Shown here in pieces: positions 2,448 to 43,906 of a stretch of DNA of 64,000 bases. The notes under the pieces were generated by a model, which worked only from the letters and a program-made list of their open reading frames with translations, did not search any database and was not told the DNA's origin. The position numbers were made by a program, and so were the translations under genes. Source of the stretch: Agrococcus jejuensis (GTDB taxonomy: Bacteria; Actinomycetota; Actinomycetes; Actinomycetales; Microbacteriaceae); assembly GCF_007679035.1 (NCBI RefSeq), contig NZ_VEFR01000001.1:620001-684000 (forward strand). The letters run 5' to 3'. Every line of letters begins with the position of its first letter. Within the stretch, counting starts at the first letter, position 1.

Positions 2448-3110
2448 ATGGCCACGAAGCAGACCGAGCGCGCGACGCCGGCGAACGACGACGCCGTGCC
2501 GGCGGCCGCGGGCTTCACGCCTCCGCGGTGGCTCGGCATCCTGCTCGTCGTGACGGGCGCCGCAGGGCTCACCGCCGCGCTCACGCTCGCGATCGAGCGC
2601 GTGCACCTGCTGCAGAACCCCGACGAGGGCCTCGGCTGCGACATCAGCCCGTTCGTGAGCTGCTCGGGCGCGATGGAGTCGTGGCAGGGCAGCCTGCTCG
2701 GCTTCCCCAACCCGTTCATCGGCCTCATGGCCTTCCCCATCGTCATCGTGATGGGCGTGCTGGCGCTCGCGCTCGTGCGCATGCCCCGCTGGGTGTGGTC
2801 GACGTTCACCGTCGGCGTGCTCGGCGGCCTGGCGTTCGCGCTGTGGCTGTGGCAGCAGAGCGTGTTCGAGCTCGGGCTCGTCTGCCCGTGGTGCTTCCTC
2901 GTCTACATGACGATGTCGGCGATGGCGCCCACGTTCGTGTCGTGGTCGATCGGGTCGGGTGCGATGGTCGCGCCCGCCGGCCTCCGCAGGTTCGTCGCGC
3001 GCTGGGGCGAGTGGTCGTGGGTCGTGAGCCTCGCGCTCGCGCTCGTCATCGTGCTCGTCATCGTCGTGCGCCTGCCCGACATCCCCAGGTTCCTGCTGCT
3101 GGGCTACTGA
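2448..3110 (+). CDS. Vitamin K epoxide reductase (VKOR) family membrane protein
   Basis: Predicted quinone-linked thiol oxidoreductase that recharges a DsbA-like partner for disulfide formation outside the cell; this role is known for actinobacterial VKORs and inferred here. 220 aa with several hydrophobic segments. The two expected cysteine pairs are present: C64 and C72 in the first loop and the CPWC active site at 146-149. I chose ATG 2448 because GAGAGG lies just upstream and the VKOR domain begins soon after; an upstream in-frame ATG at 2391 would add an unconserved Arg-rich stretch. It is convergent with ndk across a very strong terminator. No DsbA partner is adjacent. Confidence 0.9.
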   Translation: MATKQTERATPANDDAVPAAAGFTPPRWLGILLVVTGAAGLTAALTLAIERVHLLQNPDEGLGCDISPFVSCSGAMESWQGSLLGFPNPFIGLMAFPIVIVMGVLALALVRMPRWVWSTFTVGVLGGLAFALWLWQQSVFELGLVCPWCFLVYMTMSAMAPTFVSWSIGSGAMVAPAGLRRFVARWGEWSWVVSLALALVIVLVIVVRLPDIPRFLLLGY

Positions 3111-3164
3111 CCGCAGACGCGAGACGCCCCCGGCCGTGCGGCCGGGGGCGTCTCGCGTCTGCGG
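3111..3164. terminator. Bidirectional terminator with a perfect 25-bp stem
   Basis: Arms 3111-3135 and 3140-3164 are exactly complementary around a GTGC loop. It begins right after the VKOR stop and ends 10 nt from the ndk stop, so it can end both convergent transcripts. Confidence 0.9.
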
Positions 3165-3174
3165 GGATGCCCGC

Positions 3175-3585
3175 TCAGTCGAACCAGAGCGCGAGCTCGC
3201 GCGCCGACGACTCCTCGGAGTCGGAGCCGTGCACGAGGTTCTGCTGCACCGTGAGGCCCCAGTCACGGCCGAGGTCGCCGCGGATCGTGCCGGGCGCCGC
3301 CGTCGTCGGGTCGGTCGTGCCCGCGAGCGAGCGGAAGCCCTCGATCACGCGGTCGCCCTCGAGGCGCACCGCGACCGACGGGCCCGAGAGCATGAACTCG
3401 ACGAGCGGCTCGAAGAACGGCTTGCCCTCGTGCTCGGCGTAGTGCTCCTCGAGCAGCGCGCGCTCGGGCTGCACGAGCCGGAGGTCCGCGATGCGGTACC
3501 CCTTCGCCTCGATGCGGCTGAGGATCTGGCCGGTGAGTCCGCGGGCGACGCCGTCGGGCTTCACCAGGACGAGGGTCTGCTGCAT
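3175..3585 (-). CDS. ndk: Nucleoside diphosphate kinase
   Basis: Transfers the gamma-phosphate of ATP to NDPs through a phosphohistidine, balancing (d)NTP pools in the cytoplasm. 136 aa, the normal family length. It starts MQQTLVLVKPDGV (the conserved KPDG) and contains the catalytic His in NLVHGSDS near the C-terminus. ATG 3585 fits the family start; the longer frame reading to 3858 is upstream noise. It is last in the operon ileS-folC-DUF4233-ndk, 29 nt after the DUF4233 stop. Confidence 0.97.
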   Translation of the reverse strand: MQQTLVLVKPDGVARGLTGQILSRIEAKGYRIADLRLVQPERALLEEHYAEHEGKPFFEPLVEFMLSGPSVAVRLEGDRVIEGFRSLAGTTDPTTAAPGTIRGDLGRDWGLTVQQNLVHGSDSEESSARELALWFD

Positions 3586-3614
3586 CGGATGGGTTCCTTC
3601 GTTGTCCTGCTGGT

Positions 3615-3959
3615 TCACTGCGGCTGCCCGCGCCCGATCTGGCGCGCGCGCACGAAGCAGAATATCCACATCGCGATGAACGCCAGGGAGACGCCGATCA
3701 TCACCGGCTCGACGAACGCGAGGCACGCCATGAGGGTCTGCGCGACGAGGCTCGCGACCCATCCCCAGCGGTAGCGCAGCACCTTGAGCGTGAGGATGAG
3801 CAGGGCCGCGACGACCGCGAACGCCGTGGGCGCCGGCCAGTCGCGCGTGACGCCCCACACGGCGAGGGCGCCGAACGCGAGCGCGAAGACCTCGAGGCCG
3901 TGCACGATCGTGAGGAGCTTCTCGAGCAGACCGCGCTCGCGGCGCGCGGCGGCGCTCAT
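3615..3959 (-). CDS. DUF4233 small membrane protein
   Basis: 114 aa with about three or four hydrophobic segments and few charged residues, matching the DUF4233 family, which sits between folC and ndk in many actinobacteria. Its biochemical role is unknown. Its ATG overlaps the folC stop (ATGA, 3959-3956), so translation is probably coupled. The conserved folC-DUF4233-ndk order is the main evidence for identity. Confidence 0.85.
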   Translation of the reverse strand: MSAAARRERGLLEKLLTIVHGLEVFALAFGALAVWGVTRDWPAPTAFAVVAALLILTLKVLRYRWGWVASLVAQTLMACLAFVEPVMIGVSLAFIAMWIFCFVRARQIGRGQPQ

Positions 3960-5542
3960 CGATGCATCCAGCGCTCGGCGCGAGCCTTGGCCTGCACGGC
4001 CCCCAGCAGCGTGATCGAGCCGGTGACGACGACGGCCCCGCCGCGGTCCTCCGCCTGCTCGCGCGCCATCTCGACGGCGCGCTCGAGCACGGGCTCCACC
4101 GAGACGCGCTCGGCGCCGAAGACCTCGACGGCGATGCGCGCGAGGTCGTCGGCGGGCACGGCGCGCTCGGAGTCGGACTGCGTCACGACGACCTCCTCGA
4201 CATGCGGCTCGAGGATGCGCAGCACGCCTGCGGCGTCCTTGCCCTCGACCATGCCGACGACGAGCTGCACGTGCTCGAACGCGAACACCTCCTGCAGCGC
4301 CGTCGCGAGCGACTGCGCGCCGTGCGGGTTGTGCGCCGCGTCGACGACGACGCTCGGGTCGGTGCCGACGACCTCGAGCCGCCCGGGCGACGTCACCGCT
4401 GCGAACGCCGACGACAGCACGTCCTGCGCGATGGGCCGCGTGCCCGCGCCGAGGAACGCCTCGACCGCGACGAGCGCGAGCGCGGCGTTCTGGCCCTGGT
4501 GTCGCCCGAGCAGCGGCAGCGGCTGGTCCTCGTAGGCGGCGGCGAGGCCGCGCACCGTCACGAGCTGGCCGCCGACCGCGAGGGTGCTCTCGCGCTCGAA
4601 GTCCCGGCCCTCGACGAGCACGCGGGCGGCGCCGACCTCGGCCGCGCGGGCCTCGACGATCGCGAGCACGCCGGGCTCCTGCTCGGCCGTCACGACGATC
4701 GCGCCGGGCTTGACGATGCCGGCCTTCTCGGTCGCGATCGCCTCGACCGTCGCGCCGAGCCTGTTCGTGTGGTCGAGCGCGATGGGCGTCAGCACCGCGA
4801 CGTCGCCGTCGGCGACGTTCGTCGAGTCCCACGTGCCGCCCATGCCCACCTCGACGACCGCGACCTCGATCGGCGCGTCGGCGAAGATCGCGTACGCGAG
4901 CACCGTGATGGCCTCGAAGAACGTCAGCCGTCGCTGCCCGTCGCGCTCGAGCTCGCCGTCGACGAGATCGAGGAAGGGCGTGATCTCCTCCCAGACGCGG
5001 GCGAAGACCGCATCCGACACCGGCTCCCCGTCGATGAGGATGCGCTCGGTCACGCGCTCGAGATGCGGGCTCGTGAGCAGGCCGGTGCGCAGCCCGTGGG
5101 CACGCAGCAGCGCCTCGGCGATGCGGGCCGTGGAGCCCTTGCCGTTCGTGCCCGTGACGTGCACGACGCCGTACGAGCGCTGCGGGTCGCCGAGCAGCTC
5201 GACGGCGCGCGCCGTCGCGGCGAGGCGCGGCTCGATCGCCGTCTCCCCCGCGCGCTCGAGCAGCTGCGCATAGGCGGCGTCGGCGGCCTCGCGATCCTCG
5301 AGCGAGTCGAGGATGCGCTCGTCGGTCGCGTCCTGCTCGGCGTCGGGATCGTCGTCGTCGGCGTCGCCGCCGAACGGGTCGGGCACGCGCACGATCGCGT
5401 CGCCGTCGCCCTCGAGCTCGTCGAGGTCGATCGCGTCGGCGTCGACCTCCTCCTCGTACGCGTCGTCCCACGCGTTCATCTCGTCGCCGTCGGCGTTGCG
5501 CCGGGTGGGCTCGGGGTGCCGCGGCTCGCGGTCGTCGCTCAT
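3956..5542 (-). CDS. folC: Folylpolyglutamate synthase / dihydrofolate synthase
   Basis: Adds glutamate to dihydropteroate and to reduced folates (Mur-ligase fold). The ATP loop GTNGKGS is at residues 131-137, followed by [12 protein letters not shown] and the [12 protein letters not shown] helix; the C-terminal domain has [10 protein letters not shown]. At 528 aa it is longer than usual because residues 1-80 form an unusually acidic extension (runs such as [12 protein letters not shown]). The start ATG 5542 overlaps the ileS stop (ATGA); an internal ATG (MNAWDD, residue 22) is possible but lacks that coupling. Confidence 0.95.
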
Positions 5543-29597: not shown

Positions 29598-29625
29598 CCA
29601 ATCCGATGCGTGAGGCGTTCCGAAG
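29598..29625 (+). promoter_or_regulatory. SigK-like promoter of sigK
   Basis: CCAATCC (29598-29604), 15-base spacer, CCGAAG (29620-29625). It resembles the mycobacterial SigK consensus CCATCC...CCGAAT and suggests autoregulation. Transcription should begin near 29632, which rules out the in-frame ATG at 29606. Confidence 0.7.
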
Positions 29626-29686: not shown

Positions 29687-30286
29687 ATGCTGGTGCATGT
29701 GCCAGCAGTCCCAGAGTCGAGCCCCGTGACGCCCACCAGGCGTGCGACCGAGGTCGACGATGCGCTCGTGCGCGTCGCCGGCGGCGATCGCGAGGCCTTC
29801 GCGATCGTCTACGACGCGCTGTCGGCGCGGGTCTTCGGACTCGTGCTCCGCGTGCTCGTCGATCGCTCGCAGGCCGAGGAGGTGACGCAGGAGGTGTTCG
29901 TGGACATGTGGCGCAAGGCGCAGACGTTCGACCCCGCCCGCGGATCCTCCGTGGGCTGGGCGCTCGCGCTCGCGCATTCGAAGGCCGTCGATCGCGTGCG
30001 ATCGTCGCAGGCCCAGCGCGACCGCGACGAGCGCATCGGCATCCGCGACTCCGTGGCGCCGTTCGACGTCGTCAGCGAGGCGGCGGACGTGAAGGTCGAG
30101 GGCGCCCGCGTCCGCGAGGCGCTCGCGACGCTGACCGAGGCGCATCGAGAGGCCATCGTACTCGCCTACTACGGCGGGCTCACGCAGACCGAGATCGCCG
30201 AGCGGCTGGATACGCCGCTCGGGACCGTGAAGACGAGGCTGCGAGACGGCATGATCCGTCTCCGCGCGGCATTGGGGGTGTCGTGA
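29687..30286 (+). CDS. sigK: ECF sigma factor, SigK type
   Basis: 199 aa from ATG 29687. Region 2 (ALVRVAGGDREAFAIVYDAL ... AEEVTQEVFVDMWRKA) and region 4 (HREAIVLAYYGGLTQTEIAERLDTPLGTVKTRLR) are complete. Identity as SigK rests on the coupled RskA-type anti-sigma gene and the nearby fasciclin gene, the arrangement known for SigK and MPT70/83 in mycobacteria. GTG 29699 is an alternative start. There is no cysteine in the protein, unlike the disulfide-switching mycobacterial SigK. Confidence 0.85.
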   Translation: MLVHVPAVPESSPVTPTRRATEVDDALVRVAGGDREAFAIVYDALSARVFGLVLRVLVDRSQAEEVTQEVFVDMWRKAQTFDPARGSSVGWALALAHSKAVDRVRSSQAQRDRDERIGIRDSVAPFDVVSEAADVKVEGARVREALATLTEAHREAIVLAYYGGLTQTEIAERLDTPLGTVKTRLRDGMIRLRAALGVS

Positions 30287-30288
30287 CC

Positions 30289-31095
30289 ATGAAGCACCGT
30301 GAAGACATCGCGGCTCGGGCGCTGGACGCGCTCGCGGCCGACGAGCGTCGTCGATTCGACGCAGAGGCAGACGAGGCGACGCTCGCCGAGCTGTCCGACA
30401 TGCGCGAGACCGCTGCGGCACTCGCCGACGCCGTCGCCATCGCACCGCCGGCCGAGCTGCGTGCGCGCATCTTCGAGCAGGTGGCTGCGACCGAGCAGCT
30501 GACCGCCGAGGAGATCGCCGCCGAGGCAAGGCCCGCGGTCGCGGCCGTCGAGTCGTCCGATGCCGTCGACGCCGAGGTGGACGACGATCGCGAGCCCGCG
30601 CTCGTGGGCGGCGGCTCGACCGTCGTCGGTCCGCGCGAGCTCGCGGCACGACGCCGCTGGTTCCAGCGTCCTGGCTCCCTGCTCGGCGCCGCCGCAGCAG
30701 CGGTCGTGCTGCTCGTGGGCGGCATCGGCATCGGCCAGGCCATCCGCACGCCCGACCCGGTGTCGGCGCTCGTGCACGCTGCCGACGTGCGCACGCAGAC
30801 CGCGTCGCTCGCCGACGGCTCGCGCGCCACGCTCATGTGGTCCGACGAGCAGGGCGAGGCCGCGTTCGTCTTCGAGGGGCTCTCGCAGCTCGAGGCCGAC
30901 GAGGTCTACCAGGCGTGGTTCATGCCTGCCGACGGCGACCCGATCCCGGCAGGCACGTTCGCGGGCGGCGACGGCAGCGTCGTGCACGCGCTCGACGGCA
31001 CGCTCGACGAGGGCGACGGCGTCGCCATCACGGTCGAGCCCGAGGGCGGCTCGGAGCAGCCGACCACGCAGCCGCTGCTCGTGATGGGCACGTAG
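30289..31095 (+). CDS. rskA: Anti-sigma-K factor, RskA family
   Basis: 268 aa membrane protein that should hold SigK inactive. Cytoplasmic sigma-binding region (residues 1-75, AARALDALAADERRRFDAEA) without a zinc HCC motif, acidic linker, one TM segment (about 127-147, LLGAAAAAVVLLVGGIGIG) and an external RskA domain with DEVYQAWFMPADGDPIPAGTF. Known members are cleaved by regulated intramembrane proteolysis. GTG 30283, overlapping the sigK stop as GTGA, is an equally possible start two codons upstream. Confidence 0.9.
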   Translation: MKHREDIAARALDALAADERRRFDAEADEATLAELSDMRETAAALADAVAIAPPAELRARIFEQVAATEQLTAEEIAAEARPAVAAVESSDAVDAEVDDDREPALVGGGSTVVGPRELAARRRWFQRPGSLLGAAAAAVVLLVGGIGIGQAIRTPDPVSALVHAADVRTQTASLADGSRATLMWSDEQGEAAFVFEGLSQLEADEVYQAWFMPADGDPIPAGTFAGGDGSVVHALDGTLDEGDGVAITVEPEGGSEQPTTQPLLVMGT

Positions 31096-31147: not shown

Positions 31148-31184
31148 TCGTGCGGCGGTGGAGGCTCGGATGCGAGGATGCGGC

Positions 31185-31841
31185 ATGCCGTACGCACGCC
31201 CTGCCGTCGTGACGCCTCGGATCGTGGATGCCGACGGCTCGCCGATCGCGTTCGGCGAGCGGTGGGGCATGGATGGCCCACCGGAGGAGACGTACTCCGT
31301 CGACGCGCACCCCGAGCGCTTCGCTCCCCTGCATCCGATCGCCGACGCGCTGGTCGCGCACCTCGTCACGACGTTCGACGCCTCCACCACGGATGCGCTC
31401 GACGAGGCGACCTCGTGGTTCGGCGGCGACGGCCCGAGGCTGCTGCGCGCCGTGCGCGTCGAGGCCACCGCTCGCGATGCCGCAGCCCTCACCATCGCGT
31501 GGACCGACTACCCGGGCATCCGCCTGCGCGCAGGCGCCGCGCATGAGGGCCTCTACCCCGTCTGCGGCTGCGAGGCCTGCGACGAGCCGTGGGAGCGCGT
31601 CGCCGACGACCTCGAGGAGCTCGTGCTGGCCGTCGCCGACGGTCGACTGCAGGAGTCGACGGATCGCGGCATCGGATACGCGATCGAGGATGCGGACGGC
31701 GCGGTGCGAGCGAGCGGCTGGGGTTCGGCGCGCAGCATGGGCGCCGGCGGCCGCGCTCGACGACGCGCCGCGCGCGCCCTGCTCGCAGCGCGCGACGGCG
31801 CGCGCTGGCTGCCCTGGCCACCACGGTCCGACGCCCGCTAG
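31185..31841 (+). CDS. DUF6226-like protein
   Basis: 218 aa. Opens [28 protein letters not shown] and carries [20 protein letters not shown] and the cysteine trio in [10 protein letters not shown], which I recognise from memory as the DUF6226 family of Microbacteriaceae and relatives. The CxCxxC group may bind a metal. Function unknown. It has its own unit between two hairpins, and I see no SigK-type promoter for it. Upstream in-frame ATG 31171 is an alternative. Confidence 0.75.
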
Positions 31842-31885: not shown

Positions 31886-31926
31886 GCACGGCGGGGATGC
31901 GAGGACAGGAGGCATCCCCGCCGTGC
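31886..31926. terminator. Bidirectional terminator, DUF6226 gene / small ORF
   Basis: 15-bp arms GCACGGCGGGGATGC (31886-31900) and complement (31912-31926). It ends four bases before the stop of the reverse 32-codon ORF and 45 bases after the DUF6226 gene. Confidence 0.8.
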
Positions 31927-31929
31927 GTC

Positions 31930-32028
31930 TCAGGGCCTCCGCGTGCCGATCTCGGCAGGGAGGGACGTCGCGAGCGGCTCGTCGATCGTGGGCGCCCAGG
32001 GCGCCTCGGTGATCGCGGTCTCCTGCAT
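31930..32028 (-). CDS. Small ORF, 32 aa, with SigK-like promoter
   Basis: Begins [18 protein letters not shown] and ends EIGTRRP; acidic, Pro/Ala/Thr-rich, without TM or signal peptide. A perfect AGGAGG is five bases before ATG 32028. A SigK-like promoter (32079-32053) lies upstream and a 15-bp hairpin follows the stop. These three signals make it a likely translated peptide, divergent from the fasciclin gene. No family recognised; it could be a secreted or modified peptide, a regulator of RskA, or a leader. Confidence 0.6.
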
Positions 32029-32052
32029 GGAGGCCTCCTCGCGTCGCTAGTG

Positions 32053-32079
32053 CTTCGGAGCAGGCGCGTCCACGGATGG
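32053..32079 (-). promoter_or_regulatory. SigK-like promoter of the 32-codon ORF
   Basis: CCATCC (32079-32074), 15 bases, CCGAAG (32058-32053) on the reverse strand; RNA start near 32046, leader about 18 nt containing AGGAGG. Confidence 0.65.
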
Positions 32080-32113: not shown

Positions 32114-32141
32114 CCAATCCGGCTGAGCGAACGCGACGAAG
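32114..32141 (+). promoter_or_regulatory. SigK-like promoter of the fasciclin gene
   Basis: CCAATCC (32114-32120), 15 bases, ACGAAG (32136-32141); leader of about 58 nt to ATG 32206. Confidence 0.7.
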
Positions 32142-32205: not shown

Positions 32206-32877
32206 ATGCTCACCCGAAGGAACCCGCTCACCGCGGGACTCGTGCTGGCAGGCGTCGCGACGTTCGCGCTCGTCGGCTGCTCGACCGGCACCTCCGACAG
32301 CGGCTCCGACGAGTCGTCGGCACCCGAGACCTCCGCCTCGGAGGCCCCTGAGACGTCGGCAGCCGCCGACCCCGCTGCCAACCTCGTCGGCTCCGGCTGC
32401 GCCGCCTACGCGGAGGCAGTGCCGGACGGCGACGGCTCCGTCGCAGGCATGGCCGAGGACCCGGTCGCGGTCGCCGCCTCCAACAACCCGCTCCTCACGC
32501 AGCTCACGGCTGCCGTGTCGGGCCAGCTGAACCCCGACGTCAACCTCGTCGACACGCTCAACGGCGACGAGTTCACCGTCTTCGCACCGGTCGACGACGC
32601 CTTCGCGGCGCTGCCGGCCGACACGGTCGCTGCCCTGCAGACGCCCGAGGGTGCTGCGACGCTGACGTCGGTGCTCACGTACCACGTCATCCCCGGCCAG
32701 ATCGCTCCCGACGACATCGACGGCGAGCACACCACGGTCAACGGCGCGACCCTCACGGTCGAGGGCTCGGGCGACGACATCACGGTGAACGGCACCGCGA
32801 CGGTCATCTGCGGTGGCGTCCAGACGGCGAACGCGACCGTCTACCTCATCGACTCGGTGCTGATGCCCCCGATGTGA
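32206..32877 (+). CDS. Fasciclin (FAS1) domain lipoprotein, MPT70/83-like
   Basis: 223 aa. Lipobox LVGC with C25, Ser/Glu/Ala-rich linker to residue 60, then one FAS1 domain: [34 protein letters not shown] and the closing [13 protein letters not shown] cysteine pair (SGCAAY and VICGGV) could stabilise the domain. Surface-exposed, lipid-anchored. GGAAGGAGAG precedes ATG 32206. The mycobacterial homologues are the classical SigK targets, and the same promoter type is present here. Confidence 0.92.
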
Positions 32878-43074: not shown

Positions 43075-43111
43075 GATGCGCCGCCTCCCTGCCGCTGTCG
43101 GCCTTCGAGTG

Positions 43112-43138
43112 ATTCGGAGCCGCGCGACGAACGGATGC
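43112..43138 (-). promoter_or_regulatory. SigK-like promoter of the Moco oxidoreductase
   Basis: GCATCC (43138-43133), 15 bases, CCGAAT (43117-43112) on the reverse strand; leader about 30 nt with AGGGAGG. The -10 matches the mycobacterial SigK consensus exactly. Confidence 0.6.
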
Positions 43139-43195
43139 GGCAATCGTGGGCCCGACGCGGCGGCCGTGACCCACGACACACGGGTCCCTGCAGAA

Positions 43196-43209
43196 CTGAA
43201 CGCGTTCAG
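43196..43209. promoter_or_regulatory. Palindromic TetR operator candidate
   Basis: CTGAACGCGTTCAG is a perfect 14-base palindrome ending 13 bases before the TetR start; typical place for autorepression. Confidence 0.65.
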
Positions 43210-43222
43210 GTGCGCTGCTGCC

Positions 43223-43906
43223 ATGGCTTCCGACCGGCAGGACACCAAGGGCGAGCGCACTCGTGCGCGCGTCGTCGAGGCGGCGCTCGCCACGTTGGCC
43301 GAGGACGGCTACGCCGCAGCGTCCATGCGCCGCATCGCGCGGCGCGCCGGCGTCGCGCCGGGCACGATCTACCTCTACGTGCCGTCGAAGGCGCACCTCG
43401 TGCACCTCGTCTACGACGCCGTCACCGGGCGCATCGTCGATCGGCTTGGCGCCGAGCTCGGCGCGACGCGAGCCTTCGGTCGGCGACTCGACGCCGCGAT
43501 GACGATCGTGCTCGACGAGATCGCGCCGCACCACGCCGTCGCGGTCGAGATGCTCGGCGCATCGCTCGATCCCGCCTCCCCCACGAGCCCCTTCGGCGAC
43601 GCGAGCGCCGAGTCGCGGGAGCGCATGATCGCGGCGCTCGCGGAGGTCGTCGCCGGCTCGGACCTGCGTGCCGACGCCGAGGTGCTCGATGCGCTGCCCG
43701 AGCTGCTGTGGGCCGCGGTCATGGCCGTGATGCTCGCGTGGTCGATGGATCGCAGCGACGACCAGCGCCGCACGCGTGCGCTCGTGACCGAGGTCGTGCC
43801 GCTCGTCGACGACCTCGCTCGTACGAGCCGGCTGCCGGTGCTGCGCGGGCAGGCCCGCCGCGTGCTCGCGCTCGCGCGCATGGCGAAGGAACTGGGCGAT
43901 GCGTGA
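43223..43906 (+). CDS. TetR-family regulator
   Basis: 227 aa. HTH in residues 9-58: TRARVVEAALATLAEDGYAAASMRRIARRAGVAPGTIYLYVPSKAHLV. The C-terminal helical domain is unassigned. ATG 43223 is chosen because the palindromic operator sits immediately upstream. Divergent from the Moco oxidoreductase; overlaps the next gene by eight bases. Confidence 0.9.
   Translation: MASDRQDTKGERTRARVVEAALATLAEDGYAAASMRRIARRAGVAPGTIYLYVPSKAHLVHLVYDAVTGRIVDRLGAELGATRAFGRRLDAAMTIVLDEIAPHHAVAVEMLGASLDPASPTSPFGDASAESRERMIAALAEVVAGSDLRADAEVLDALPELLWAAVMAVMLAWSMDRSDDQRRTRALVTEVVPLVDDLARTSRLPVLRGQARRVLALARMAKELGDA

Follow-up and report, generated by a model that had tools for sequence, protein, structure and literature searches.

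Organization of the sigK-fasciclin locus

The window analysed here is a 64,000-nt stretch of the Agrococcus jejuensis genome (G000), and it contains four plus-strand genes around the locus of interest, encoding a SigK-like sigma factor, an RskA-like anti-sigma factor, a DUF6226 protein and a fasciclin-domain protein. A short open reading frame (ORF) lies on the minus strand between the last two. The two closest relatives, G021 and G023, have fasciclin proteins with 96% and 86% identity to that of the window, respectively, and both retain sigK, DUF6226, fasciclin, a promoter that diverges from the fasciclin gene, and a hairpin. The features, from left to right, are as follows.

29601-29625, plus strand: SigK-type promoter 5′ of sigK (motif match)
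29687-30286, plus strand: sigK-like ECF sigma factor gene (Pfam Sigma70_r2 and r4; start assigned by a codon-usage caller)
30283-31095, plus strand: rskA-like anti-sigma gene (Pfam RskA_C, E 1.9e-27)
31158-31841, plus strand: DUF6226 gene (Pfam; start assigned by the codon-usage caller)
31886-31926, no strand assigned: 15-bp hairpin with an 11-nt loop, a probable bidirectional terminator and possible minus-strand RNA element
31930-32028, minus strand: 32-codon ORF, with the frame found in G000 only
32034-32039, minus strand: Shine-Dalgarno sequence AGGAGG, 5 nt 5′ of the ATG and placed relative to the start like the GGAGG of Agrococcus dipZ genes
32053-32077, minus strand: divergent SigK-type promoter ATCC-N15-CCGAAG, kept in G021 (N15) and G023 (N16)
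32117-32141, plus strand: fasciclin SigK-type promoter, one base off (ACGAAG; seen in the sequence, with no exact motif match)
32206-32877, plus strand: fasciclin-domain lipoprotein-like gene (Pfam Fasciclin, E 1.7e-26)

A first-pass annotation of this DNA had described the ORF at 32028-31930, its AGGAGG, a SigK-like promoter and the 15-bp hairpin, and each of these is present as it had reported; the ORF encodes a peptide of 32 residues. From this full set of signals it had concluded that the ORF is a peptide gene, a conclusion to which we return below. G021 differs from the window in carrying a DUF222/HNH gene (2757-4376 of the fetched stretch, plus strand) between DUF6226 and the hairpin.

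SigK-type promoters at the locus

The motif ATCC-N13..18-CCGAA[GTC] was surveyed at 92 loci that carry a related fasciclin gene, 12 of them Agrococcus stretches and 80 taken from named genomes; three of these 80 repeat Agrococcus genomes. It is found upstream of fasciclin in 80 loci (shuffle mean 0.44, maximum 2) and in the divergent orientation in 28 (shuffle mean 0.24, maximum 1). ACGAAG replaces CCGAAG in the fasciclin promoters of the window and G021, and the window's fasciclin promoter therefore falls outside the 80. Exact N15 motifs number three in the window against 0.18 expected, one of them within the DUF6226 gene; the SigK-type motif at 31250-31274 (minus strand), antisense inside that gene, is probably a chance occurrence.

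A stricter N15 motif, requiring a pyrimidine before CCGAA, occurs three times in the 3.35-Mb G000 genome and not at all in a reversed control, with sites upstream of sigK, upstream of the tiny ORF and on contig C44. Counts for G021 and G023 are 6 and 11, again with controls of 0. The SigK-like promoter and the start signals of the first-pass annotation are thus supported, the promoter motif being common to the fasciclin and sigK promoters, which is what membership of a SigK regulon would entail, and two of the three genome-wide sites are at this locus. We regard the predicted divergent promoter as convincing, and we infer from the place of the motif before sigK and fasciclin that the window's sigma factor is what reads it. 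A longer version of sigK starting at 29606 would overlap the motif at 29601-29625, which makes autoregulation of sigK, with a start further downstream, probable.

In M. tuberculosis, mpt83, dipZ and mpt70 are named among the sigK-regulated genes in PMC3078919. The locus resembles the SigK regulon of Mycobacterium and Corynebacterium, with its dipZ and MPT70/MPT83-type fasciclin genes, in having a SigK/RskA pair beside fasciclin and a common promoter motif. It differs in that the dipZ slot is empty and the promoter reads into a 32-codon frame known from G000 only. A literature search for Agrococcus together with fasciclin found no paper, a statement that extends to that search and not to everything in print.

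A 32-codon ORF known from one genome

The peptide has no signal peptide, cysteine or hydrophobic stretch as judged by eye, and a Pfam search with it gave zero family matches. These properties offer nothing in favour of the suggestion that it is a surface or modified peptide, and nothing found here supports the further idea that it modulates RskA or the fasciclin protein. Tblastn of the peptide against 59 other genomes, including 23 congeners, gave nothing beyond chance level; with an E cutoff of 10, matches appear in 29 of the 60 genomes including its own, and the strongest one outside G000 has an E value of 0.009 and lies in a 153-aa frame. The same search of 397 other genomes of the family was likewise at chance level, with 11 of them giving matches at E 0.018-0.05 per genome where about 20 were expected by chance among the 398 searched. 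A plasmid collection gave zero matches to the peptide.

The stretch carrying the ORF is missing altogether from G021 and G023, in both of which the hairpin starts 7 nt past CCGAAG. The conservation check by tBLASTn that the first-pass annotation had put forward therefore goes against it: both close relatives retain sigK, DUF6226 and fasciclin and lack the frame, the relatives' genomes yield no homologue beyond chance level, and the ORF is without the conservation of reading frame that would mark an established small-protein gene. Because G021 and G023 carry the promoter and the hairpin without the ORF, neither signal lends it independent support, and the step from a full signal set to a peptide gene fails. 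If the simplest order of branching is adopted (G000 with G021, then G023, taken from the identities and not from a tree), G000 has gained the ORF stretch, or else G021 and G023 lost it separately. A search for the DNA source of the stretch gave short G+C-rich matches across all 24 genus genomes, none of them convincing. Two other origins were considered and rejected. As a fasciclin fragment, the ORF has a best score that is reached by 383 of 500 shuffles (by 32 of 300 codon shuffles at the DNA level), and in a second test 179 of 400 shuffles reach the score and 47 of 400 the mean score. A copy of a hairpin arm as the origin of the Shine-Dalgarno region is equalled by 391 of 2000 shuffles.

The composition of the ORF is coding-like. 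Its GC3 is 31/32, a value equalled by 5 of 20,000 shuffles, and not one stop-free shuffle in 20,000 attains its codon score. Among gene windows, 482 of 561 have a codon score at least as high. The ORF scores 11.7 against 9.9 for frame-matched antisense, and 807 of 6572 stop-free 96-mers of uncalled sequence score at least as high as the ORF, although these are mostly clustered in possibly uncalled genes. As such genes compromise uncalled sequence as a null, a comparison with short gaps was made instead, and 3 of the 12 other short gaps in the window contain stop-free 96-mers scoring at least as high as the ORF, two of these being perhaps start extensions of called genes. The codon bias of the ORF is coding-like, yet it is weak evidence for a gene. 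Apart from composition and signals, nothing found here favours a peptide gene. Elsewhere in the window, the 824 bp at 43075-43898 have no gene assigned by the codon-usage caller and are partly coding-like in composition, such that a missed gene is possible there.

A conserved hairpin beyond the ORF

The hairpin starts 3 nt beyond the TGA of the ORF and has 15 perfect pairs. The 61-nt stretch around it has a folding energy of -34.2 kcal/mol (z -3.6), and 0 of 200 shuffles are as good. It has no T-run, and a scan for T-tailed terminators found none. There are 10 other long perfect hairpins in the window, several of them just beyond gene ends; like these G+C-rich hairpins, which are probable terminators with no T-run, it has a long and perfect stem, and unlike them it has an 11-nt loop (GAGGACAGGAG) that is identical in three species, the window's own, G021 and G023. 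We consider it a probable bidirectional terminator. The longest exact inverted repeat listed for the window, a perfect one of 26 bp at 3111-3164, lies between converging genes.

Among the 24 genus genomes the 15-nt core of the hairpin matches exactly only at the fasciclin locus, with single-mismatch matches elsewhere. Comparison of the three sequences reveals two compensatory pair changes in G023, and two changes in G021 that give G-U pairs on the minus strand only. Together these changes mildly favour a role in a minus-strand transcript. Rfam gave only matches far below the gathering scores, and a possible pairing of the loop with the fasciclin leader was rejected as unremarkable (rank 29 of 59 leaders).

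dipZ is the usual divergent neighbour in Agrococcus

Fasciclin is divergent from dipZ in 40 of the 92 loci (within 500 bp in 39) and directly divergent from sigK in 41 further loci. The remaining 11 have neither in divergent orientation, and they include all three loci of the window's clade. In the fetched Agrococcus stretches outside this clade dipZ adjoins fasciclin divergently in 9/9, a set that leaves out G009, which has a partial fasciclin match only. The dipZ products have DsbD_TM, AhpC-TSA/Redoxin and Thioredoxin_10 domains (Pfam). A dipZ search at E 1e-10 found none in G000 or G023. G021 has a dipZ gene at G021:C1:1773326-1774159, some 1.4 Mb away from fasciclin, and the N15 motif search lists no site there.

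The initiation region of the tiny ORF looks like that of most Agrococcus dipZ genes whose leader has the motif. Seven of the nine Agrococcus leaders have the motif 5′ of dipZ (two are without it), and all nine have GGAGG before the start. Between the -10 element and the start codon, five of the seven have 23, 24, 24, 26 and 26 nt and the other two have 55 nt; outside Agrococcus, where measurable, the gaps are 27, 44, 48 and 48 nt. The corresponding distance to the ATG of the tiny ORF is 24 nt, and it thus has the leader geometry anticipated for a relic of dipZ, within the 23-26 nt of five of the seven. The locus resembles other Agrococcus dipZ-fasciclin loci in motif (seven of nine), start-codon gap (five of those seven) and GGAGG (nine of nine), and differs from them in that it has no dipZ coding sequence, nor did the search of the remaining genome find any.

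Residual dipZ coding sequence, which a relic might also be expected to contain, was not found in comparisons with nine proteins and with the DNA of the loci. The 31 codons after the ATG have no similarity to the nine dipZ proteins (96 to 193 of 200 shuffles equal the score), and the ORF has no supported similarity to the dipZ loci at the DNA level (19 loci). The likeness to dipZ is therefore limited to the initiation region. Matches in G022 (two loci; 0 and 1 of 40 shuffles) were discarded as dipZ-locus matches, as the match sits in fasciclin and 6 of 400 shuffles score as well.

Origin of the ORF and alternative explanations

We favour, at somewhat better than an even chance, an interpretation in which a SigK-controlled dipZ gene, divergent from fasciclin, once occupied this slot and left behind a start region that now drives an unrelated short frame. 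This is the simplest reading, and it is drawn from position and spacing, not from leftover dipZ codons. The coding part of dipZ would have been lost or replaced, and what survives of the gene (promoter, ribosome-binding site and start codon) would drive 31 unrelated codons that end at the hairpin, which would terminate both the minus-strand transcript and the opposing sigK-rskA-DUF6226 transcript. The peptide, if made, would be a by-product or the product of a very young gene with no established role, and the tiny ORF is probably a remnant, or else a frame of very recent origin, rather than an established peptide gene. Against a dipZ relic we count that the 31 codons after the ATG are unlike dipZ in protein and DNA, that AGGAGG is a general signal, that two Agrococcus dipZ leaders have 55-nt gaps and two of the nine have no motif, that the gaps outside Agrococcus are 27, 44, 48 and 48 nt, that the simplest branching order makes the ORF stretch a gain in G000 short of two separate losses, and that the composition of the ORF is coding-like.

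This same composition also speaks for the idea that the ORF is a young SigK-dependent microprotein gene, gained in the window's species and co-expressed with fasciclin when SigK is active. The full signals, the GC3 of 31/32, a codon score beyond all 20,000 shuffles and the 482 of 561 gene windows that score as high are all in keeping with such a gene, whereas the lack of homologues, its absence from the two closest relatives, the antisense score of 9.9 against 11.7, and the frequency of equally high scores (3 of 12 gaps, 807 of 6572 uncalled 96-mers) are not, and we view it as unlikely, if a serious contender. Chance would account for the ORF as a stop-free stretch that happens to lie behind a Shine-Dalgarno-like string and a promoter of older date, given that short G+C-rich frames are frequent and several of the signals are older than the ORF, but AGGAGG is well spaced from both the -10 element and the ATG and the in-frame GC3 bias is strong, which makes this explanation very improbable.

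The hairpin could instead be the functional product, as a SigK-dependent RNA, with the ORF lying incidentally between promoter and hairpin. In keeping with this, all three species retain promoter and hairpin (with just 7 nt between them in G021 and G023), the loop is identical, the core has its exact copies at this locus alone among the 24 genus genomes, and there are two compensatory changes in G023 and two minus-strand G-U changes in G021. Only three sequences contribute to this pattern, an ordinary terminator accounts for a conserved stem, and neither the loop-leader pairing nor Rfam points to such an RNA, so that we think it quite doubtful. A composite scenario, in which dipZ is gone, the clade keeps the SigK promoter for a functional short transcript, a stable hairpin RNA with an invariant pyrimidine-rich loop, and the window's species has added a young 32-aa microprotein frame by putting the start signals of dipZ to new use, strikes us as rather unlikely.

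With the vacated dipZ slot as the preferred interpretation, the complete expression signals around the tiny ORF probably come from a neighbouring gene since lost, and loci of this type would be a trap for the discovery of small proteins from sequence alone. The promoter itself, which three species have retained in the absence of its customary gene, is an orphan of a sigma-factor regulon, and as such it may be a natural site at which to seek gene birth or a small RNA.
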